From Deltaproteobacteria bacterium (GTDB taxonomy: Bacteria; Desulfobacterota_D; UBA1144; Nemesobacterales; UBA2774): DNA of 64,000 bases. A program made the translations under genes and the position numbers. The notes beneath the pieces were generated by a model that was given only the letters and a program-made list of their open reading frames with translations, searched no databases and was not told the DNA's origin. Position 1 is the stretch's first letter; each line of letters opens with the position of its first letter. The stretch is taken from NCBI GenBank assembly GCA_040223695.1, contig JAVKFU010000017.1, forward strand, positions 186,001 to 250,000. Reading direction: 5' to 3'. This document shows positions 49,774 through 60,872 of this stretch, in pieces.

Positions 49774-50916
49774 ATGAACCAGCTCGCGGAATCAATTAAA
49801 TCGGAAATACGAAAAAGGGGCCCTCTCACATTCGCCCACTTCATGGAACTCGCCCTCTATCACCCTGAGCTTGGATATTACTCTCCCGGAATTGAGCGGA
49901 TAGGGAAAGAGGGTGATTACTATACAAGTCCCTATGTACATCAGGCGTTCGGCGAGATTCTGGCAAGGTTTATTGTAAAAGGAGCAGGCCATTTCGGGGG
50001 TGCCGATTTCGACATAATCGAATTCGGCGGCGGAAAGGGCTTGCTCGCCTCCGACATACTGAAATACATGAAAAGAGACCATCCTGACGTATACGATAGA
50101 GTGCGTTACCATATAGTCGAACATAACCCGCACCAGAGAAAAGAAGCGGAAAAGGGTCTTGAAAAGCATAGACATAAACTGAGCCTCCTCTCGTCACTTT
50201 CGGAATTGGGCGAAAGAAACATCGACGGGGTTATAATCTCAAATGAATTCGTGGACGCTCTCCCCTTTCACAGGGCCAAATTCTCGCGTGGCGAACTGCT
50301 TGAAATCTACGTGGCGCTTAAAGAAAACGAATTCGTAGAACTTAAAGGCAAGCCGTCTTCAAAAGAGATCGCAAGCTATCTTGAAGACTACGGCCTGCAG
50401 TTAGAGGAAGGGCAGGAGCTTGAAATAAACCTGAATGCGGGCAGGTGGATCAAGGAAACAGAACGGATACTGGATAGAGGATTAATACTTACGATAGACT
50501 ACGGCTATCTCGCGCCTGAATTATTCAGCCCCCATAGAATGAAGGGAACCTACAAGTGCCTTCACAAGCATCAAATAAACGAGAACCCTTACGTAAATAT
50601 AGGAGAGCAGGATATAACCGCCCACGTCGATTTCAGCAACCTGATTAGAGTCGGTGAGCACGCGGGCCTAAACGAAATCATATACACCACTCAGGGTCAG
50701 TTCCTGCTCGATTGGGGGATACTCGATATTATAGAAGACGGAGAATCAGGGGCCGGGACCGCGTCAGGAAAAGATACAATCGCAGCCGGGACTTTATTTT
50801 TGCCGCAGCTTATGGGAGATAAATTCAAAGTACTCGTACAGGGAAAAAATATTGAGGATGAAACACGGAACTTCTATCCCGAATCCCCTCTCAAAATCAG
50901 TTTTGGTGTTTTGTAG
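49774..50916 (+). CDS. SAM-dependent methyltransferase, MidA/NDUFAF7 family (COG1565)
   Basis: A 380-residue protein of the COG1565/DUF185 family. RGPLTFAHFMELALYHPELGYYSPG is the family opening, with YYTSPYVHQAFGEI and FDIIEFGGGKGLLA (SAM-binding loop) following. VIISNEFVDALPFHRA and LTIDYGYLAPELF complete the signature. In eukaryotes it methylates an arginine of complex I; the bacterial target is unknown. I choose the ATG at 49774 because the family motifs begin there; a TTG 20 codons upstream is unsupported. It is divergent from plsC. Confidence 0.9.
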   Translation: MNQLAESIKSEIRKRGPLTFAHFMELALYHPELGYYSPGIERIGKEGDYYTSPYVHQAFGEILARFIVKGAGHFGGADFDIIEFGGGKGLLASDILKYMKRDHPDVYDRVRYHIVEHNPHQRKEAEKGLEKHRHKLSLLSSLSELGERNIDGVIISNEFVDALPFHRAKFSRGELLEIYVALKENEFVELKGKPSSKEIASYLEDYGLQLEEGQELEINLNAGRWIKETERILDRGLILTIDYGYLAPELFSPHRMKGTYKCLHKHQINENPYVNIGEQDITAHVDFSNLIRVGEHAGLNEIIYTTQGQFLLDWGILDIIEDGESGAGTASGKDTIAAGTLFLPQLMGDKFKVLVQGKNIEDETRNFYPESPLKISFGVL

Positions 50917-50928
50917 GTTCCGCTTCCG

Positions 50929-50948
50929 ATAATTCCACCGGGAATTAT
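50929..50948 (+). terminator. Weak hairpin after the MidA-type gene
   Basis: ATAATTCC and GGAATTAT form an 8-bp stem around the loop ACCG, 13 bases after the gene. There is no strong T-run, so a terminator role is only possible. Confidence 0.3.
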
Positions 50949-51011
50949 TACTCCGGCTATAAGACATGAAGCCTGCCCGCCTGTAGCTTCCAAATACGCG
51001 GAATATTCACC

Positions 51012-51040
51012 TTGACAAAGGCTTAAAAATACCCTATAAT
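51012..51040 (+). promoter_or_regulatory. Consensus sigma-70 promoter of the TetR/CMD operon
   Basis: TTGACA (51012-51017), a spacer of exactly 17 bases, and TATAAT (51035-51040) are both perfect consensus hexamers, about 90 bases before the TetR start. The right end overlaps the palindromic operator, which suggests tight repression by a very strong promoter. Confidence 0.9.
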
Positions 51041-51065
51041 TAGGACTGACTGGTCAGAGCTAATT
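51038..51065 (+). promoter_or_regulatory. Palindromic operator, probable TetR binding site
   Basis: Two nested inverted repeats share one centre: AATTAG...CTAATT (51038-51043 and 51060-51065) and CTGAC-TG-GTCAG (51046-51057). The whole 28-bp element begins inside the -10 box. Its size and position fit autorepression by the TetR-family gene that follows. Confidence 0.8.
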
Positions 51066-51128
51066 GCGCAGGTATTAAATTGATTCAAAGCGGCGCAGGG
51101 TGAGAAAATAAAAGGAGGGAGCAAATAA

Positions 51129-51710
51129 TTGAGGAAGAGCAAAGATAAAATACTTGAAAGCGCAAAGAAGTTGTTTCATCTCAAAGGTTTTTACCAGACA
51201 TCAATAGACGAGATTCTCAGTGACAGCGGCGTTACAAAAAGCAATTTTTACTACCATTTTAAGAGCAAGGAGGAACTGGGGCTTATATATCTGGATAGAC
51301 GCATTAAACAATATGAAACCGAGGTGCTCTCAACCACACTGGAGAACAATTCGGAAAGTCCCGCTTCGCGAATTGACAAATTCTACAAAAAAGTGAAAAC
51401 ATTTCATACGGATTTGAGTTGTGTGAAAGGCTGCCCATTCGGAAACCTTGCCATAGAAATGAGTGGTGCCAACGAGAATTTTAGAGAAAGATTATCGACA
51501 TTTTTCCGCAGGTGGGAGAAATCGATTGAAGAATGCATTGAAGAAGGAATGAGCAACGGGGAATTCAGGAGTGATATTTCGCCAAAAATAATGTCCCGGC
51601 TCATATTGTCCCACCTGGAAGGCGCCGTAATGATGGTCAAAACCCACAGATCCATCGATCCGCTCTCTTCCGGGAGCGAAACGATGATAAAATTGCTAAA
51701 AGCTGCTTGA
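51129..51710 (+). CDS. TetR-family transcriptional regulator
   Basis: A 193-residue TetR-type repressor. The helix-turn-helix is at about residues 22-54 (TSIDEILSDSGVTKSNFYYHFKSKEEL). The C-terminal domain has CVKGCPFGNLAIEMSGA, a pattern of the TetR_C_6-like subgroup, and cysteines that could sense redox or electrophiles. The start is TTG, with GGAGGG nine bases upstream. A palindromic operator overlaps the promoter upstream, so autoregulation is likely. The double-CMD gene follows after 27 bp and is presumably the controlled function. Ligand unknown. Confidence 0.9.
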   Translation: MRKSKDKILESAKKLFHLKGFYQTSIDEILSDSGVTKSNFYYHFKSKEELGLIYLDRRIKQYETEVLSTTLENNSESPASRIDKFYKKVKTFHTDLSCVKGCPFGNLAIEMSGANENFRERLSTFFRRWEKSIEECIEEGMSNGEFRSDISPKIMSRLILSHLEGAVMMVKTHRSIDPLSSGSETMIKLLKAA

Positions 51711-51737
51711 AAATAAAAAGAATAAGGAGGCATTAGA

Positions 51738-52439
51738 ATGTCGGAATATTTGTTTAAAAGCGATATAGGGAAGGAGATGGGGCTTCTCAGGGAGATAAAT
51801 CCCGAGCTGCACGGGGCGTGGATGGACTTTCATAACGGGGTTTTCAAAGACGGCGCCCTCAGCCAGAAAGACAAACAGCTTATCGCCGTTGCGGGTGCTC
51901 ATATTACCAGGTGTCCATACTGCATCAGGTCAAGGGTCAGACTGGCGAAGAACCAGGGTGCTTCGGACCAGGAAATAGTCGAGGCCATATACGTCGCACT
52001 GCGCTTCTCCATGGGAGCGCCTTTCGCCTATTCGAGCATTGCTTTCGAGGCTCATGACGCGCTTGAGAACGACATACCGCTTACGGACGGCCATTTCTTC
52101 AAAAAGGATATAACAAAGGAGATAAACGAATTCCATCAGTGCAGCGGAGACAACTCAGATAATTTCAAAGCGTTCACCAAGAAGGTTTTTGCGGACGGCG
52201 CTATCAGCAAGGACATGAAAAGGGGCATAATAGGCCTCGCCTGCGCCCAGATGACCAGATGCCCATACTGCATTAGGGGCTGCGTTAAAGACGCCAGAAG
52301 CGCGGGAATTTCGAAAGAGCAGATCGCCGAGGCGATAAATGTGGCTATGGTAATGGCCGCAGGCGCGTGTTTCGCGCATACAAGCCTGGCCATGGAGACC
52401 ATTGAAGCGTTAAACCAAAAGGAAAGATCGCGGGCTTAA
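51738..52439 (+). CDS. Tandem carboxymuconolactone decarboxylase/AhpD-like protein
   Basis: A 233-residue protein with two CMD/AhpD-like domains (about 30-110 and 145-222). Each has a CPYC motif (C59-C62 and C175-C178) with a long helix after it. In AhpD the CxxC pair plus a histidine four residues later (CxxCxxxH) reduces peroxiredoxin; here those histidine positions are R66 and C182. A disulfide-linked redox role is likely, but the proton relay differs. It is 27 bp downstream of TetR, with GGAGG at the usual distance. A strong hairpin lies downstream (52546-52576). Substrate unknown. Confidence 0.86.
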   Translation: MSEYLFKSDIGKEMGLLREINPELHGAWMDFHNGVFKDGALSQKDKQLIAVAGAHITRCPYCIRSRVRLAKNQGASDQEIVEAIYVALRFSMGAPFAYSSIAFEAHDALENDIPLTDGHFFKKDITKEINEFHQCSGDNSDNFKAFTKKVFADGAISKDMKRGIIGLACAQMTRCPYCIRGCVKDARSAGISKEQIAEAINVAMVMAAGACFAHTSLAMETIEALNQKERSRA

Positions 52440-52545
52440 TCTTCCCTTTGAGGCTCATTAGTTTATTTTGGTTTGTAAAGACATTAGTGCATTCTGGCGG
52501 AATACGGAATACTTAGTTAAGTTGCCGAGCCAAACCAAATTATTT

Positions 52546-52576
52546 CCATAGAAGGGGTTAAAACCCCCTTCTATGG
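52546..52576. repeat. Strong inverted repeat between CMD gene and mnmE
   Basis: A perfect 12-bp stem (CCATAGAAGGGG with CCCCTTCTATGG) has a 7-base loop. It is not followed by a long T-run on the plus strand. It is nested inside two further inverted pairs: TTTGGTTTG/CAAACCAAA and, outermost, GTAAAGAC (52475-52482) / GTCTTTAC (52588-52595). It may be a terminator or a small folded element. Confidence 0.6.
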
Positions 52577-52687
52577 GCAATTAAAGGGTCTTTACACTAA
52601 ATTAATATGCAAAATCTCTTCCAAACAGACCGGTTAGATATACCTGCATTAGAAACCATAGCGCGATTATGGTAATTTATCCCTGAG

Positions 52688-54094
52688 ATGAGCCGGGCTT
52701 CCATTCCTGATCAAGATACAATCGCGGCAATTGCTACAGCGGAGGGGGACGGAGGGATCGCCGTAATTAGAATAAGCGGCCCGAAATCGCTCGACACAGT
52801 AAGCCGACTATTCCGAAGAGTCGGCAAGGGCGGAAACGCTCCCCGGATGGAATCCCACAAGCTCTACCACGGCCGAATTATAGACCCTGAGTCGGATGAA
52901 CTTATAGACGACGTACTTTGCGTTTTTATGGGGTCTCCGAATTCATACACCGGGGAGGACATGGCTGAAATACACTCTCACGGGGGATATCTTGTCCCGA
53001 AAAGCATACTCAAACTGCTCTTTTCACTCGATATCAGACCCGCGAACCCAGGGGAATTCTCCCTCAGGGCCTTTTTAAACGGTAAAATGGACCTCACACA
53101 GGCAGAAGCCGTAGCCGATATCGTAAATGCCCAGACTCGGGAAGGCCTGAAACAGGCGGAATTACAGCTTGATGGGCATCTTTCGTCTAAAACGAGTGAT
53201 TTTAAGGAAACCGTTCTTGACGTACTGGCCGAAGTTGAGGCGCAGGTCGATTTTCCGGAGGAAGACATAGATCCTATCGTAAAAAACGAGCTAACGAGGC
53301 GGATAACAGGGCTCATCCGTAATCTAGAGTCTTTATTGTCTACATACGACGAAGGCAGAATTATCAAGTACGGGGTAAAAACGGCTATTCTGGGCAAACC
53401 AAATGTCGGCAAATCGAGTCTGTTGAACATGCTAATCATGAAAGACAGGGCTATTGTAAGCCCTGAGCCCGGCACCACAAGGGATTTTATCGAAGAATCC
53501 ATGGATATTCGCGGCATACCCCTCAAGCTGGTTGACACTGCGGGGATAAGGGCGACGTCAGATAAGATAGAGAAGACTGGGGTGGAGCTTGCAAGGAAAA
53601 AAGCGCTTGAGGCCGAGCTTTTAATAGTGGTTTTGGACGGAAGCGCTGTACTCGATAACGATGACATGGAGGTTTTAAATGAGGCAAAACATAAAAAAGC
53701 GCTTTTAATATTGAACAAATCGGACATTGGAACGAAGATAAGGTATGTCGACCTGTCAGGTTATGCAGATGAAGAAAGGATGATTCACACATCGGCCAAG
53801 CTCGGAACGGGCATAGAAGAGCTCAAGGACAAAATACGAGAACTTTTAACGGGAGAATCCCAAGCCACTGAAGCAAGCGAAATAGTATTGACCGAATTAA
53901 GGCATAAGCTCGCGATTGAAAAGGCAAGAGACAGTCTCATTTCCTTCCTTGAAGTCCTGGACAAAGGAGAATCCCCGGAATTCCTCGCTCTCGATTTGAG
54001 GGTCGCTCTAGACTCACTCGGAGAAATTACCGGTGAAGTTACCACCGAAGACATACTGGGAAGAATTTTCAGCAAGTTCTGCGTAGGCAAGTAA
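52688..54094 (+). CDS. mnmE: tRNA modification GTPase MnmE
   Basis: A 468-residue MnmE (TrmE), which with MnmG makes cmnm5U at tRNA wobble positions. An N-terminal folate-binding domain (DTIAAIATAEGDGGIAVIRISG) is followed by the helical domain and a G domain: GKPNVGKSSLLN (G1), TTRDFIEE (G2), VDTAGIR (G3), NKSD (G4). The C-terminal FCVGK contains the conserved catalytic cysteine at residue 465. Length is typical (about 450-470). It is often found near the replication origin, and here the next intergenic region carries a parS site. No mnmG, rsmG, parA or parB is in the window. Confidence 0.96.
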   Translation: MSRASIPDQDTIAAIATAEGDGGIAVIRISGPKSLDTVSRLFRRVGKGGNAPRMESHKLYHGRIIDPESDELIDDVLCVFMGSPNSYTGEDMAEIHSHGGYLVPKSILKLLFSLDIRPANPGEFSLRAFLNGKMDLTQAEAVADIVNAQTREGLKQAELQLDGHLSSKTSDFKETVLDVLAEVEAQVDFPEEDIDPIVKNELTRRITGLIRNLESLLSTYDEGRIIKYGVKTAILGKPNVGKSSLLNMLIMKDRAIVSPEPGTTRDFIEESMDIRGIPLKLVDTAGIRATSDKIEKTGVELARKKALEAELLIVVLDGSAVLDNDDMEVLNEAKHKKALLILNKSDIGTKIRYVDLSGYADEERMIHTSAKLGTGIEELKDKIRELLTGESQATEASEIVLTELRHKLAIEKARDSLISFLEVLDKGESPEFLALDLRVALDSLGEITGEVTTEDILGRIFSKFCVGK

Positions 54095-54106
54095 TGCGCG
54101 GCGTGA

Positions 54107-54122
54107 TGTTTCACGTGAAACA
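54107..54122. other. parS centromere site (perfect match)
   Basis: TGTTTCACGTGAAACA is the full 16-bp palindromic consensus bound by ParB in chromosome segregation. It lies 12 bases after the mnmE stop, outside any gene. By length alone a perfect 16-mer is not expected by chance in 64 kb. A one-mismatch copy lies at 55842-55857. Confidence 0.9.
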
Positions 54123-54130
54123 TCCACAAT

Positions 54131-54139
54131 TGTGGATAG
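54131..54139 (-). other. DnaA box-like site, one mismatch
   Basis: TGTGGATAG on the plus strand is the reverse complement of CTATCCACA, one change from the DnaA consensus TTATCCACA. It is inverted relative to the box at 54229. Confidence 0.5.
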
Positions 54140-54228
54140 ATTTTTTCACATTTACCAAGGGGGGATTAAGATATTATATTTAATGATTACAGGAAGTTAG
54201 GACGACTAATCGCAATTCGTCGAAAAAT

Positions 54229-54237
54229 TTATCCACA
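54229..54237 (+). other. DnaA box (perfect)
   Basis: TTATCCACA matches the DnaA consensus at every position. It lies in AT-rich intergenic DNA about 107 bases after the parS site. Confidence 0.65.
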
Positions 54238-54337
54238 ATCCTTCCACTTTTTAAATTTTCTTTAATTACAGGGACTTGAGAATTTAAAGGAAAATTACAG
54301 GATAAAAAAGCACTCTAAAACTGTATTTTTCGGAGCG

Positions 54338-55150
54338 TTAGGACCATTTAAGCTTCTCAATAAGCAACTCTTTTAAATCTCCGTACCGTCTTTGATCAAC
54401 GGATATATTGCAATCATTTATCCGGGAAATAAGCGAGCACCCCGTTATGGAATTCGTAAAAAAGGCGAAGTCTGAATCAATAATATCGCTCGGAAAATAC
54501 CGCCCTTCTCTGACCTCTATCCCAAGCTCCGGGATATTATTTAATAAAATATCCCTTGTTATACCCGGTAAAAGGCCGCACTCAAGAGAAGGCGTAAAGA
54601 TCACACCGTCTTTGAACCAGAATACGTTACTTGCGCTACCTTCGGTAATCTCATCCCTGTGATTTAAAAAAAGCGCTTCGTCGAACCCCTTTTCAATCGC
54701 CTCTCTCCGGGCGGCGATGTTCTCCAGGTAATTCATGCTCTTGATCCGGAGAAGCGGTGATTCCGAGTACCTTTTAACCGGGTGAACCAGAGTTTTAACA
54801 GGTTCTTTGGTTGCCGAGTACTCCTTGATAATTACGAGAATTGCCTCTTTTTCAGGGTTATCGTAAAAACGAGAGCTCCCCTGGGACAGAAGACAAACCT
54901 TAACATACGCGTCCGAATACCCGGCTTCCTCAACCGCGTTTCGTACCTGCATTGATAAACCGGAGATCTCCGGGATGGGTATTCTTAAAAGCTCCGCCCC
55001 ACGCTTCATACGCTGATAGTGAACCGGGAAAAAAACAGGTAAGCGGGACTTGTAACGAAAGGTCTCAAAAACCCCCTCTCCGTAAAATAAGGTCCTCAAC
55101 GGCAGTAGGCTTTCTGCTCTTTCGCCATCTATAAACACCTGTTCTGACAC
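54338..55150 (-). CDS. pabC: Aminodeoxychorismate lyase (PabC) / branched-chain aminotransferase-like
   Basis: A 270-residue class IV PLP enzyme. The LRTLFYGEGVFETFRY opening, the PLP-lysine region RIKSMNYLENIAARREA and the EITEGSASNVFWFKDGVIFTPSLECGLLPGITRD block are typical. In PabC this enzyme releases p-aminobenzoate for folate; the alternative is a D-amino acid or branched-chain transaminase. The position directly downstream of pabB on the same strand supports PabC. The gap to pabB is 36 bp. Confidence 0.9.
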   Translation of the reverse strand: MSEQVFIDGERAESLLPLRTLFYGEGVFETFRYKSRLPVFFPVHYQRMKRGAELLRIPIPEISGLSMQVRNAVEEAGYSDAYVKVCLLSQGSSRFYDNPEKEAILVIIKEYSATKEPVKTLVHPVKRYSESPLLRIKSMNYLENIAARREAIEKGFDEALFLNHRDEITEGSASNVFWFKDGVIFTPSLECGLLPGITRDILLNNIPELGIEVREGRYFPSDIIDSDFAFFTNSITGCSLISRINDCNISVDQRRYGDLKELLIEKLKWS

Positions 55151-55186
55151 AATATTTTCCGTTTTTCTGACTATAACCGGATAGAC

Positions 55187-56437
55187 TCACTCTATCAGAC
55201 CGAAGGCCTTTCTCACAGCCAGGGATTTCAGCAATGATTCCTCGTATTCCTTCTCTGGATCAGAGTCCCATACTATTCCTCCCCCCGCCCAGAATGAACA
55301 TCTCCCGGCCTCCGCCGCCAAAACCCTTATTCCCACACTCAGCGTAAAGTCCCCGTCAGGATAAAATACTCCGATCGCGCCGCAATAAGGTCCCCTGTAA
55401 TGCGGCTCGAGTTCATCGATGATTTCCAAGGTTCTCTTTTTCGGCGCTCCGGTAACCGATCCCGGAGGAAATACATTTCTCACGATCTCCCCTATGCCTG
55501 CATCAGCCTTAATTTCACCCTGTACCTCGGAAACCATCTGATGGAGTGTCGCGTAACTTTCTATCTCGAATAATCCGTTCACCTTGACGGAGCCGGGCCT
55601 GCACACACGTGAGAGATCATTTCTCATGAGATCTACAATCATCAGGTTTTCTGCCCTCTCCTTCTCGCTGCTTACAAGCTCCGCTTTCTTAATAGTATCG
55701 GCCTGCTCGGAGAGCCCCCTCCTCCTCGTTCCCTTGATTGGTTTTGTAAGCAGTTTTCTCCCTTTTTTTCTTAAAAAAAGCTCCATTGACCCGCTCAAAA
55801 GCTGAAAATCACCAAAATCCATATAGCTTGCGAACGGCACATGTTGCACGTGAAACATTCTCATAAAATAAGGCAAAGGATTAATCGTGAAGTCCAGCAT
55901 GAACCGCTGAGAAAGATTTATCTGATATAAGTCCCCGTATTCAATGTATTTTTTCGCCTTTAACACCATATCTATATATTCGGCTTTACTCATATTCGAA
56001 ATTATGGAATGGTTGCCTTTATCGATCCCGCAGGGGTTTTCCTCATTGACCGGCAAGTTGAACCTGTAAGCCAGCTCTCTGATACTTCCTCTCTCGATGT
56101 CCTCCATGCGGTACAGGTGAAAAAACAGCTCGGGGAATTTTGTGCCGTCCTTCCGGCGAACAGGAGTGAAGCCGGTGTCAGTGAGCCCGGAATATTCATA
56201 TCCCAGATATCCCGCTGCAACGTAACCTTCGCTTAGATACCCTTCCAGAACCATTACAGGGTCGCGCTTTGACTGAATTATTTTATTTCCGGTATTAATC
56301 CTGGTCAGCTCGCCCTGAAATGACATGGATAAAACGGGTCTTTTGAAAAGCATGAATGAATCGGTATCGGTTATGTCGTCCAGCCACCCTCCTCCGGAGT
56401 CCAGGAGCAGTGACGAGCAGGTTATTTCAGGCTCCAT
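55187..56437 (-). CDS. pabB: Aminodeoxychorismate synthase component I
   Basis: A 416-residue chorismate-binding enzyme. YIEYGDLYQINLSQRF and SGSMELFLRKKGRKLLTKPIKGTRRRG contain the family signature; the lysine in PIKGT is typical of PabB and absent in TrpE. RNVFPPGSVTGAPKKRTLEIIDELEP and GAIGVFYPDGDFTLSVGIRVL follow. It adds ammonia or glutamine nitrogen to chorismate for folate. Its partner glutaminase pabA is not seen. It precedes pabC. A one-mismatch parS site lies inside it. Confidence 0.93.
   Translation of the reverse strand: MEPEITCSSLLLDSGGGWLDDITDTDSFMLFKRPVLSMSFQGELTRINTGNKIIQSKRDPVMVLEGYLSEGYVAAGYLGYEYSGLTDTGFTPVRRKDGTKFPELFFHLYRMEDIERGSIRELAYRFNLPVNEENPCGIDKGNHSIISNMSKAEYIDMVLKAKKYIEYGDLYQINLSQRFMLDFTINPLPYFMRMFHVQHVPFASYMDFGDFQLLSGSMELFLRKKGRKLLTKPIKGTRRRGLSEQADTIKKAELVSSEKERAENLMIVDLMRNDLSRVCRPGSVKVNGLFEIESYATLHQMVSEVQGEIKADAGIGEIVRNVFPPGSVTGAPKKRTLEIIDELEPHYRGPYCGAIGVFYPDGDFTLSVGIRVLAAEAGRCSFWAGGGIVWDSDPEKEYEESLLKSLAVRKAFGLIE
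55842..55857. other. parS-like site inside pabB (one mismatch)
   Basis: TGTTGCACGTGAAACA differs from the parS consensus by one base (T to G at position 5). It lies within the coding sequence of pabB, as parS sites often do in other genomes, 1.7 kb from the perfect site. Confidence 0.7.
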
Positions 56438-56606
56438 AGATAAGAATCATAACCCCGGGGACTTAATTTACAACCGGAATTTGAAATACCCGTGAATCTT
56501 CCACTACTAATCCTACATAACCGACTGTAATTTATAGAAATATTGAGTCAGGTAATTGACAGGCAAAGGCTCATAAAGAGTCCCTAACGCAGACGCGGAT
56601 AAGCTG

Positions 56607-58607
56607 CTAAGCCTTCTTATCAGTTTCTATAGACTCCCTCAGAATCATAGAAATATCCTTTATCTGCAGCTTATCATTTCCGGCATGCTTCGCAGCGTCC
56701 TCAAACATAGTATCGCAGAAGTAACATGCAACCGCAAGTGTATCCGGATTTTTCGATTCCACCTCCTCGAAACGGTTCCAGTTTACCCTCGGCGCGTCCT
56801 CTTCCATCCATATCTTGCCGCCGCCCGCGCCGCAGCAGAAGCTCCTCTCCCGCTTACGGTCCAATTCCACGAGATTTAATCCCGGAATCGACTGAAGTAT
56901 CTCACGAGGGGCATCGAATATCCTGTTGTACCTCCCCAGATAGCAGGGGTCGTGATAGGCGACATCCTCTTTTATCTCCTTGGTCGGCCTTAACTTCCCC
57001 TCTTTTACAAGATCATTCAGCAGTTCAGTGTGGTTGACAACCTCGTAGTTTCCGCCGAACTGCGGGTATTCATTCTTAATCGTGTTAAAACAGTGCGGGC
57101 AGTTCGCAATAACCTTTTTAACCTTGAGTTCATTGAGGTTCTCGATATTCTGGGTCGCCAGCATCTGATACAAGGCTTCCTCGCCCAGCCTTCTTGCCGG
57201 ATCCCCCGTACAGCTTTCCATCGGCCCCAGTACGGCGAAGTTAACCCCGGCCTGAGTTAAAAGGCTTACTATAGACTGTGCGATCTTCTGCCCCCTGGGG
57301 TCGTACCCTCCGTAACATCCCATCCAGTATATGTAGTCAAACGTGCTTGCGTCATCCTTGCCATCCTCGCCGATTACATTGACGTCCTCATAGTTAGAAA
57401 GCCATTTCGCCCGGTCCCCTTCGCTGAATCCCCACGGATTACCCTGGGTCTGAAGTTTTTGGAGCGTCTTTACTGCGGTTCCGGTCAGCCTCCCCTCAAG
57501 TGTGAGAAAGCGCCTCATCTCCATTATCATTCCCATCTGGTCTATAAACAGCGGGCACTGCTCGACACATGCGTTACAGCTGGTGCAGGCCCAGAGTTCA
57601 TCCTCCGTGACCCATTCGGGACCCGGAATTATGGCATGGCCATTTCCGTTTACGGAGTCTCCGTCTAACATCACTTTCCCCTCGCTTGAGGCGTAATGCC
57701 TTAATTTAACTACAATTTCTCTTGGGGAAAGGGGTTTTTCCGTGTGCCAGGCAGGGCAGTTATCCGTGCATCTTCCGCACTCTGTGCATGTGTAGGCGTC
57801 GAGGATGTTTTTCCAGGTGAAATCCTCTATTGTTCCGGCGCCGAAGTGGTCTATATCGTCCGGCACATTCTCGAAATCGATGGGTTTCATGGCTCCTCTC
57901 GGTTTAAGGTTCTGAAAAAATACATTCGGCACTGCAGTGAAAACATGGCTGTGCTTCGAATAAGGAAGATAGTTAAGGAATCCGAGAACTATCAGGACAT
58001 GAAACCACCAGAAAAATTCATGGGAGAACCTGAGCCCTCCTTCACTCATACCGCTAAAGAAAACATTTGCAAATACGCTCGAAACCGGAAGCCACTTCGA
58101 TTCGGTTTCCCCCAGTGCTATATTTGTCCCAGTAGCCCCGAACGCCGTAACCATAAGTCCGAATATCAACCCCAAAACGACGACCGCGTCGAGTCCGTTG
58201 ACTTCCCTTCTTTTGGCAATGGTCGTCCTGTTGATTATTCCCATGACGATGGCCACCAGTACAAGGAGCTGTACTATATCAAGTATGAATTCATAGACAT
58301 TATGCGCTGATCCGGGGACCAATTTGAAACCCGGGAAAACCCCTCCCACCAGCATCTCAGTGGTTCCTATAGTGATTATCACGAAACCCCAGAAAATCAT
58401 GAAGTGTTCGACACCGGCGAATGTGTAATTCTTCACAAGCCTCTTCTGGCCGAATACATATACGAGAACGCGTTTTATTCTCTCGCCTATGTTGTCGAAT
58501 CTTGGCTCGTATTTGCCGATTCGCAGAATCTTTATCAGGTTGTAAATGTTGTAGAGGAAAAACCCGAAAGCGGCTATTATCAGAATTGCCATTATAATCG
58601 GTTTCAT
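56607..58607 (-). CDS. Membrane-bound Fe-S oxidoreductase (HdrD/EMO-like, ETF:menaquinone type)
   Basis: A 666-residue fusion. The N-terminal 270 residues contain about five membrane helices of the NarI/HdrE type. Two [4Fe-4S] motifs follow: CTECGRCTDNCP and CTSCNACVEQCP. The C-terminal part has two CCG-type domains: ESCTGDPARR region with NCPHCFNT (degenerate) and HDPCYLGRYN with SFCCGAGGG (classical). This order matches membrane proteins proposed to move electrons from ETF to menaquinone. It would act at the inner membrane. The ETF genes are not in the window. A heterodisulfide reductase-like role in anaerobes is the main alternative. Confidence 0.88.
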   Translation of the reverse strand: MKPIIMAILIIAAFGFFLYNIYNLIKILRIGKYEPRFDNIGERIKRVLVYVFGQKRLVKNYTFAGVEHFMIFWGFVIITIGTTEMLVGGVFPGFKLVPGSAHNVYEFILDIVQLLVLVAIVMGIINRTTIAKRREVNGLDAVVVLGLIFGLMVTAFGATGTNIALGETESKWLPVSSVFANVFFSGMSEGGLRFSHEFFWWFHVLIVLGFLNYLPYSKHSHVFTAVPNVFFQNLKPRGAMKPIDFENVPDDIDHFGAGTIEDFTWKNILDAYTCTECGRCTDNCPAWHTEKPLSPREIVVKLRHYASSEGKVMLDGDSVNGNGHAIIPGPEWVTEDELWACTSCNACVEQCPLFIDQMGMIMEMRRFLTLEGRLTGTAVKTLQKLQTQGNPWGFSEGDRAKWLSNYEDVNVIGEDGKDDASTFDYIYWMGCYGGYDPRGQKIAQSIVSLLTQAGVNFAVLGPMESCTGDPARRLGEEALYQMLATQNIENLNELKVKKVIANCPHCFNTIKNEYPQFGGNYEVVNHTELLNDLVKEGKLRPTKEIKEDVAYHDPCYLGRYNRIFDAPREILQSIPGLNLVELDRKRERSFCCGAGGGKIWMEEDAPRVNWNRFEEVESKNPDTLAVACYFCDTMFEDAAKHAGNDKLQIKDISMILRESIETDKKA

Positions 58608-59209
58608 AAAATTGTCTCCTTGGTTGGTAAAACGGCTAATCGTCGACCATCTAGTATCTTAAAAAAAAGCTATATGATAGTCAAGCTAAAAATCCCCTGT
58701 ATCAAGCCGTTATTGAATAATTTTTGGACTACGCCCGTGTATACTCATCCCCGGCAAGCGTTGCCGTGATAATGTCGTATATATTCACTATAAGCAATAT
58801 AATATATATATAATTGTATCATGGAAATTCCAGCCCGATAGTGCGGGCGCTTTTTGCTCAGTTCCGTCCCGGGGGGCCTTGTATAAAAACCGGCGCTTCC
58901 GTCTATACCTCGTTATTCAGGAGTAAATATCAGAGAGCGGCAATCACGTCTTTGTCTTTTTATTTCCCTATCCCCGGTACAGGAGAACGGTTCTGAGTAA
59001 GGATTGCGTACAAGTGCGCAGTTGGACGCTCCCGGCTAACTGCAAATTAACCATTCCGTCTTCGCACCGAAGTCGTGAAACCGGATCCAAGAACCCGGCG
59101 CCCTTGTTTAAAGGCAGAGTAGCCTGTTAATTTCCGGCACTGAACGCATTGATTCAAATTAAAGGTGAATCTCCTCCGCACATCCCCTGTGGGTGCAATC
59201 CACCCCCCT

Positions 59210-59247
59210 CATCCTTGAGCGCACACGTAGTGTGCAGTCGAAGGATG
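59210..59247. repeat. Palindromic repeat CATCCTTGAGC...GTCGAAGGATG
   Basis: CATCCTT and AAGGATG pair at the ends, and an inner GCACACGTAGTGTGC palindrome sits in the loop. It is the counterpart of the 23182-23205 element, with paired changes in the stem. Confidence 0.6.
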
Positions 59248-59289
59248 TCGTTCCTTTTTCCGCCTATCCTTGGACTAAACTAGATATTT

Positions 59290-59312
59290 CCTTCCCCCTA
59301 ACAGGGGGAAGG
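59290..59312. repeat. Perfect hairpin CCTTCCCCC/GGGGGAAGG
   Basis: A 9-bp stem encloses TAACA. No gene ends next to it and no T-run follows, so a REP-like intergenic element is more likely than a terminator. Confidence 0.55.
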
Positions 59313-59404
59313 TTAGAACGGAGGTGTCATGTCGACCAACACGAGAAATCTATTATTTGTCATTCTGAATTTATTTCAGAATCTCGTCTTTTGCCATTTC
59401 TTTT

Positions 59405-59518
59405 CCGACATTACAGAAATTGCGTTAAAAAATAAATACACAATCGTTAAAATATTTTAGGTCTGCAGGTTTTTTGTTAAGTCGGTGATTTTTGCTTCTT
59501 TTCATCAAGGAAAAGAAG
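59405..59518 (+). repeat. Dispersed intergenic repeat, copy B
   Basis: It has the same three blocks, in the same order, as 22925-23072: CCGACATTACAGAA (59405-59418), TTAAAATATTTTAG (59447-59460), and a 39-base block (59480-59518) with a 9-bp hairpin (CTTCTTTTC 59495-59503, GAAAAGAAG 59510-59518). The loop differs by one base. Confidence 0.8.
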
Positions 59519-59648
59519 AAATTATTAATGTTGTCATTGCCGTAAATGTCAAGTAATTCGGGGCGGTTTTTAAGGAATTCAGCAGGCGCCATACCCCCTA
59601 GCTCGCTGCGGCCGTTTGTGGGGCCCTTGATTAATGAATTCTAGTGGC

Positions 59649-60872
59649 TTAATTTAAGGTTACAAGGATCGAGTCCACTTCGGGCTCATCTGTCTGAATA
59701 TCCCTTCCGTACCGACTCGCTTCCTCTTTTGTGGTAAATTTCCCCACTCTTACCCTGTACCAGGTTCCCCTGCCGGGCAAATCGGCCTTCTCTATATACG
59801 CGGGATAGGTCTTTGACAGAAGCGCCTGCTCCATTTTCCTCGCGATATCCAGATCAGGGTAGGAGGCAATCTGAACCGTATAACTCCCGTTTGAGTCACT
59901 TGCTACGAGTGCGTCGGTTACTTGAGGCGAATCAGCTTTTACCGCCGATGCGGTCTGCTTCTTTTCGCCGGCCTCTTTATTAGCCCCTGATTCGGACTTC
60001 CGGGGAGATTTCCCCTTGTTATTTACTATAGTCTCTGTCTTAAGGGTCTCCACGTATACGAATGATTTAACTTTTTTCTTCGGAGAGTTATTCTTGTCCT
60101 TCCTGTCGGCAACTCTGGCCTTAATATTTCTCGCCGTTGGTGTCTGCTTTAGATAATCATAATGAGCGTAGACTTTTTCCACATATTCTATCGTTTCCGA
60201 ATAGGGCGGTATCTTGTAGCCGTATTTTTTCACGGCGTTCTCTCCGGCATTGTACCCCGCGATCGCAAGCGTTACATCATTGAACATATTCAGCAGTTTG
60301 TTGAAATACCTGACCCCGCCCTCTATGTTCTCCGACGGGTTAAACGGGTCGGCCACTCCGACGCGCTCGGCCGTGCCGGGCATGAGCTGCATGATTCCCA
60401 TAGCGCCCTTGGGCGAAACTGCGTCAGCATTGAAATTGGACTCCACCTTTATCATCGCCTTTATTAGCAGCGGGTCTATTCCGTACCACCGGGCTGTAGT
60501 GGTGATGTTCTCATCGAACTTGTCAGAATATTTAAACTTATTCAGATACCCCCTCTTACTTTTCGGCGTCCCCCTGAAAGTGCCCCAGGGATTTACTACG
60601 CGTTTGTAGCTGCTGCTTTTCGGATCAATATTCGTGTAATAGACAACGCCGTTACTTTCCTTTTTGTAATAGTAGGAATTGGCCTGTGTATAGGCCGGGG
60701 AAAATAGAAAAAATACGGGGAAGAATAATATAGAAAGAATCAGATAAGCTTCTTTATGCAGAGTCGCTCCTCTCACGGGGGCATTCTTACGGCACATAGT
60801 CAAAAAGGCAGAGTACGACCGCCTTAAATTCAACTGAGAAGAGCGGAATATGTACAAAGATTCATCCTCCAT
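59649..60872 (-). CDS. Lytic transglycosylase (SLT) with SPOR domain
   Basis: A protein of about 407 residues acting on peptidoglycan. Residues about 43-66 look like a signal peptide or anchor (LILSILFFPVFFLFSPAYTQ), preceded by an unusually long, basic N-terminus. The SLT domain includes IDPLLIKAMIKVESNFNADA (catalytic glutamate), GAMGIMQLMPGTAERVG and AIAGYNAGENAVKKYG. The SPOR domain is C-terminal (VQIASYPDLDIARKMEQAL). A lysine-rich linker joins them. The start is uncertain: ATG at 60870-60872 is used, but ATG 60795-60797 (MCRKNAP) would give a normal signal peptide. A GC-rich hairpin lies just upstream (60887-60927). Confidence 0.85.
   Translation of the reverse strand: MEDESLYIFRSSQLNLRRSYSAFLTMCRKNAPVRGATLHKEAYLILSILFFPVFFLFSPAYTQANSYYYKKESNGVVYYTNIDPKSSSYKRVVNPWGTFRGTPKSKRGYLNKFKYSDKFDENITTTARWYGIDPLLIKAMIKVESNFNADAVSPKGAMGIMQLMPGTAERVGVADPFNPSENIEGGVRYFNKLLNMFNDVTLAIAGYNAGENAVKKYGYKIPPYSETIEYVEKVYAHYDYLKQTPTARNIKARVADRKDKNNSPKKKVKSFVYVETLKTETIVNNKGKSPRKSESGANKEAGEKKQTASAVKADSPQVTDALVASDSNGSYTVQIASYPDLDIARKMEQALLSKTYPAYIEKADLPGRGTWYRVRVGKFTTKEEASRYGRDIQTDEPEVDSILVTLN

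Follow-up and report, generated by a model that had tools for sequence, protein, structure and literature searches.

Two parS matches lie at mnmE and within pabB

The window, a 64-kb stretch of DNA (positions 186001-250000 of contig C17 in genome G000), comes from a genome of 3.03 Mb assembled in 23 contigs and 95.6% complete. The closest relatives of its MnmE protein were mostly from Candidatus Dadabacteria MAGs, and the host is an uncultured relative of Dadabacteria. The mnmE gene, encoding a tRNA-modification GTPase, occupies 52688-54094 on the plus strand (NCBIfam NF003661, 423 bits, E=1.5e-126) and is convergent with pabC (54338-55150, minus strand), which encodes an aminodeoxychorismate lyase-like protein. 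Beyond pabC lies pabB (55187-56437, minus strand; TIGR00553, above cut-off), encoding aminodeoxychorismate synthase component I. Upstream of mnmE, at 51738-52439, is a gene whose product has two AhpD-type (alkylhydroperoxidase-like) domains, a neighbour kept in families f1 and f7 (f1 denotes the window's own family and f2-f7 the remainder of its order).

The 16-bp parS palindrome TGTTNCACGTGAAACA has an exact match at 54107. This site 1 (54107-54122, unstranded) is a perfect palindrome, TGTTTCACGTGAAACA, with 0 mismatches, and begins at the same position past mnmE as in relatives. Site 2 (55842-55857, unstranded), TGTTGCACGTGAAACA, has 1 mismatch and covers pabB codons 194-199 (M FHVQ H). Both 16-mers were exactly where the sequence-only reading had located them, and its placing of the first beside mnmE is borne out by the 12 bases between the mnmE stop codon and parS. 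Beyond what that reading described, site 2 is inside pabB and site 1 abuts a DnaA box between convergent genes. At ≤3 mismatches, sites 1 and 2 were the only parS matches in the 64 kb; shuffled windows held a mean of 0.13 matches, and two were reached in 0 of 100. A search of the whole 3.03-Mb genome at ≤2 mismatches returned only the same two places, 1.7 kb apart. Few and clustered copies, without scatter, were thereby found in this genome, as in all 41 positive relatives (1-2 per genome), and sites 1 and 2 are almost certainly the only strong ParB docking sites in this bacterium.

Site 2, with the identical single mismatch, is common to genera g1, g2 and g4. Relatives with the site have FHVQ at these pabB residues, and relatives without it have other residues. 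The FHVQ codons, TTT CAC GTG CAA, were invariant in 6 genomes and form the sole pabB run of ≥3 codon-invariant positions, against a background in which about 10% of conserved-residue codons are invariant (6 genomes). We rejected the explanation that site 2 is a by-product of the PabB protein, given these frozen codons and the different residues of the siteless relatives. By its codon pattern, site 2 is selected as DNA, a predicted parS embedded in coding sequence and under codon-level constraint. The one base at which it breaks the palindrome belongs to a CAA codon, for a glutamine that every aligned relative shares, so the protein appears to hold that base.

A single ParABS set of the chromosomal type

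A ParB of the curated family is encoded once in the genome, at C17:156251-156763 on the minus strand (match to TIGR00180, 198 bits). The gene belongs to the operon parA-parB-purS-purQ, in which the parA and parB reading frames overlap, and SMC is also present in the genome. The same order recurred across families in nearly all relatives read, except where a contig ended and at a second, unrelated ParB-like locus. Across the larger-genome order, parA-parB shares an apparent operon with the purine genes purS and purQ (L003 and the parB loci of relatives).

The ParB protein resembles solved Spo0J/ParB chains and keeps GERRWRA, with the GERR motif associated with CTPase function. By alignment it has R173, G201 and R204 (Caulobacter numbering), with K or R at position 184. 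R173 and G201 distinguish proteins that read parS from Noc, and one engineered ParB (RTKG), of the K184 type with R173/G201, was promiscuous (PMC7383237). With one intact ParA/ParB/SMC set, the sequences support a complete parABS system of the parS-reading chromosomal type. The sequence-only reading had deduced ParABS segregation while remarking that parA and parB are absent from the window. The absence is real, both genes being elsewhere on contig C17, 83 kb to the left of parS; the deduction agrees with the single operon, the ParB motifs, the SMC and the unscattered sites. Where parS and parB share a contig, they are 83 kb (G000) and 77 kb (G048) apart in f1, and 336 kb (G029), 410 kb (G032) and 465 kb (G013) apart in other families.

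mnmE is the recurrent address of parS

An order-wide survey of 44 genomes (≤1 mismatch, with the reversed pattern as control) found one or two parS sites in 41 and never three; the control gave 0 matches. Among the three parS-negative genomes, G028 carries the two sites with 2 mismatches each, and G053 and G055 are without an assembled mnmE. Every placeable parS of the order sits at mnmE, starting 6-19 bp past the gene end, and families f3, f5 and f7 carry an additional parS just upstream of mnmE. At one locus (L022:11410-13395), the parS after mnmE is interrupted by an insertion element, about 2 kb long and with inverted ends, whose 8-bp target duplication (GAATGTTT) means that a perfect parS remains beyond it.

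In the f5 genome G029 (locus L281; the G028 locus is L282), both mnmE sites read TGTTTCACGGGAAACA, one half matching parS and the other bearing the C characteristic of NBS, the site read by Noc. The f5 ParB keeps R173/G201 together with K184, described as a permissive lysine (PMC7383237). It is possible that f5 represents a natural intermediate between the reading of parS and of NBS.

The genomes of f8, a second order within the same class with small genomes of about 1 Mb, are without a canonical parS. Loss of the system was considered and rejected: ParB is kept in 12 of the 14 genomes, and TTCCACGTGGAA, or a variant of one half of it, occurs inside mnmE in 12/14. This variant palindrome always lies over the same mnmE codons, [G/A]TT CCA CGT G[G/A]A A, in MnmE proteins only about 28-39% identical to that of the window and with residues at the palindrome that differ from those of other families. 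The f8 ParB differs too, with R replaced by I, L or V at position 204 and K/R by D, E or N at position 184. The joint change of site and ParB suggests co-evolution, though no more firmly than that, because it represents one event on the tree.

Predicted DnaA boxes adjoin parS in the mnmE-pabC gap

With mnmE and pabC convergent, an order kept in f1, f2 and f3, neither gene requires a promoter in the DNA between them. The gap has 34% GC, compared with about 48% in the contig, and is the top-ranked DnaA-box cluster of the 251-kb contig C17. A degenerate left half-box, ACATCCACA (54120-54128, plus strand), overlaps the last bases of parS site 1, and a DnaA box, CTATCCACA (54131-54139, minus strand), lies 8 bp after the site. 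Half-box and box together make a palindrome, ATCCACAATTGTGGAT (54122-54137), which has one base in common with parS. In dinucleotide shuffles of the window, a first DnaA box ≤17 bp from parS had a probability of about 1e-4. Farther into the gap, an exact DnaA box, TTATCCACA (54229-54237, plus strand), belongs to a conserved downstream cluster, next to a degenerate second DnaA-like box, CCTTCCACT (54240-54248, plus strand), which aligns with the second box of f2 relatives, where a second ATCCACA follows 11 bp after the first. Alignment places an AT-rich core with the class consensus ATTATTCAATAATTnnAGnnAGTTAGAA between the box clusters (54165-54205, unstranded). No structured RNA was matched in Rfam within 50000-60000.

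We considered whether the palindrome after parS is only the intrinsic terminator of mnmE, its likeness to a DnaA box being incidental. In the window ATCCACAATTGTGGAT followed by AGATTTTTTC scores as terminator-like, and in G021 both arms have changed with pairing kept (TTCACA/TGTGAA), which amounts to one possible compensatory pair. Across f1, f2 and f6, however, 21 of 22 genomes retain the right arm TGTGGATA 7-9 bp after parS, compared with 14 of 22 for the complete stem, a pattern more in keeping with a protein site. Most of these genomes also have further ATCCACA boxes at about 105-118 bp from parS, which the hairpin does not explain. A terminator as the sole function is thus unlikely, and terminator and DnaA-box roles could coexist at the palindrome.

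The boxes are not a general feature of such loci. The parS-bearing mnmE loci of other groups showed no DnaA box adjoining parS, and within the order f4, f5 and f7 have either no boxes or decayed ones. In G025, DnaA boxes persist where the adjoining parS has decayed. These families, and the persistence of boxes in G025, indicate that the boxes are not obligatory for the centromere. The AT-rich core ATTATTCAATAATTnnAGnnAGTTAGAA is kept even in f7, where the DnaA boxes have decayed.

The predicted oriC lies at dnaA

Contigs C17 and C19 of the window's genome were examined over their whole length. The second of them carries dnaA, and the gap before the next gene, presumably dnaN from its first codons, carries TAGTAGTAGCAGTAGTAGGGCCTGTGGATTTGTGGATAA, with DnaA-trios abutting boxes. 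DnaA-trios abutting DnaA boxes are the usual unwinding element of oriC. The element was present at 4 of the 11 dnaA loci tested (L185-L188), this one included, and in the mnmE gap in none of the 6 genomes tested. These sequence elements place a separate oriC between dnaA and dnaN.

The sequence-only reading had called the window origin-proximal, which is true of relatives and could not be extended to f1. In the one-contig, 1.59-Mb genome G013 (the same genome as G044), the cumulative GC-skew minimum, at 1,107,521, coincides with the end of dnaA; the parS sites, at 1,084,318 and 1,085,805, are 22-23 kb from it, and parB is at 618,608. In most other families in which the genes share a contig, mnmE and parS lie 13-27 kb from dnaA. 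In f1, mnmE and dnaA are on different contigs and, assuming correct assembly, at least 70 kb (G000) or about 150 kb (G048) apart. On contig C17 the cumulative skew is already declining as it reaches parS and continues to do so up to the contig end, with no minimum at parS. Origin proximity therefore rests on the relatives, because the f1 dnaA is on another contig and the C17 skew falls through parS.

The contig ends 10-11 kb after parS in two genera (right ends at 251187 in G000:C17 and 562350 in G048:C3), hinting that a repeat shared by both contig ends keeps the parS-dnaA distance open in f1.

The distance of at least 70 kb from oriC in f1 fits a second alternative, that the box cluster titrates DnaA or promotes DnaA-ATP turnover (datA/DARS-like or rctA-like) and is merely beside parS. 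A precedent is rctA/parS2 of Vibrio cholerae, a centromere locus titrating an initiator (PMC6399470). On the other side, a spacing of 7-9 bp from parS points to joint function more than to mere proximity, and about three boxes are few for titration; we consider this explanation, too, improbable.

It is very unlikely that the mnmE-pabC gap serves as the replication origin or as a second, active one. In favour of that reading, the boxes are at fixed spacing in DNA of low GC content and, in G025, outlast parS. Nevertheless, the DnaA-trio count (0/6 gaps against 4/11 dnaA-flanking loci), the G013 minimum at the end of dnaA and the uninterrupted fall of the C17 skew led us to reject the gap as oriC. 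Least credible of all is that the parS matches arose by chance or serve a regulator other than ParB, for CACGTG cores are bound by other regulators but the rarity, fixed position and codon-level constraint of the sites, the parS-type ParB and the class-level change of site in f8 together with ParB positions 184 and 204 speak strongly against it.

A probable centromere and its possible link to DnaA

We conclude that the two sites are very probably the chromosomal centromere (parS) of a ParABS system. The identity and rarity of the sites, their position, the box spacing, the coding-site constraint and the intact ParA, ParB and SMC are all evident from sequence, and from them we infer that ParB binds here. 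Dimeric, CTP-bound ParB would load at parS and slide outward over mnmE-pabC-pabB; it would recruit SMC, and ParA would pull ParB, so that the parS region segregates first. ParB-CTP loading, sliding, SMC recruitment and ParA-driven movement are established for ParABS systems (PMC7333895, PMC7022226).

In f1 and f2 the main parS forms part of a compact predicted module in the mnmE-pabC gap, in which a DnaA box follows parS after 7-9 bp and one or two more DnaA boxes stand beyond about 90 bp of AT-rich DNA. DnaA would be expected to bind these boxes, and its most likely role there would be to couple replication initiation to the start of segregation, a proposal by analogy for and against which we find the case evenly balanced. 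More tentative, and on present evidence doubtful, is a class-wide reading in which the centromere stayed fixed at mnmE as the segregation genes and, in f1, the origin moved off, and in which two to three families acquired a parS-DnaA-box composite where DnaA occupancy gates ParB loading or release, making it a DnaA-controlled centromere distant from oriC. As a parS, the locus is of an ordinary and well-supported kind; less ordinary are its class-wide address at mnmE with distant parAB and the parS-DnaA-box composite. Our search, which covered part of the literature, found no paper on chromosome segregation in Dadabacteria and no report of an mnmE-fixed centromere or a parS-DnaA-box composite for this group.

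The main known case of DnaA acting directly at parS is that of Caulobacter, a member of a different phylum. How replication initiation is coupled to centromere segregation is an open question on which the recurrence of parS with DnaA boxes bears: the arrangement is kept at fixed spacing over several genera, and the box-free families serve as natural controls. According to the account of Mera et al. 2014 in PMC6399470, DnaA of Caulobacter crescentus binds boxes that lie at the centromere and are distinct from oriC; at low levels DnaA can move parS with no replication taking place, and a link of DnaA-ATP to segregation has been proposed. The present locus is similar in having (predicted) DnaA boxes at parS, apart from oriC. 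It differs in the fixed 7-9 bp between parS and the adjoining box, in the further boxes at about 105-118 bp, and in that the arrangement, predicted from sequence, is kept over many genera of another phylum. The rctA/parS2 locus of Vibrio cholerae chromosome II likewise combines a centromere locus with initiator binding, which is predicted here; there, however, the initiator RctB has no relationship to DnaA, and titration of RctB is the presumed role of the locus (PMC6399470). Loci of Geobacteraceae and another deltaproteobacterium (L023, L025 and L036) are without a DnaA box adjoining parS, unlike the window, and resemble it in that parS starts 6-8 bp past mnmE.

The chromosomal ParABS systems of Bacillus (Spo0J), Thermus (ParBc) and Caulobacter (ParB) share with this one the same 16-bp site, one parA-parB operon, a ParB with CTPase and recognition motifs, an SMC and few sites. 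Systems with a single parS have been described in Thermus (PMC4409726), Xanthomonas (PMC7333895) and Caulobacter (PMC6399470), and in Thermus about 6 kb separate the par locus from oriC (PMC4409726). Unlike in those systems, parAB here is 77-83 kb from parS in f1 and 336-465 kb from it in three contiguous genomes of other families, the centromere keeping its mnmE address with parAB tens to hundreds of kilobases off. A further difference is that one parS lies in coding DNA under codon-level constraint, retained at the cost of codon and residue freedom.
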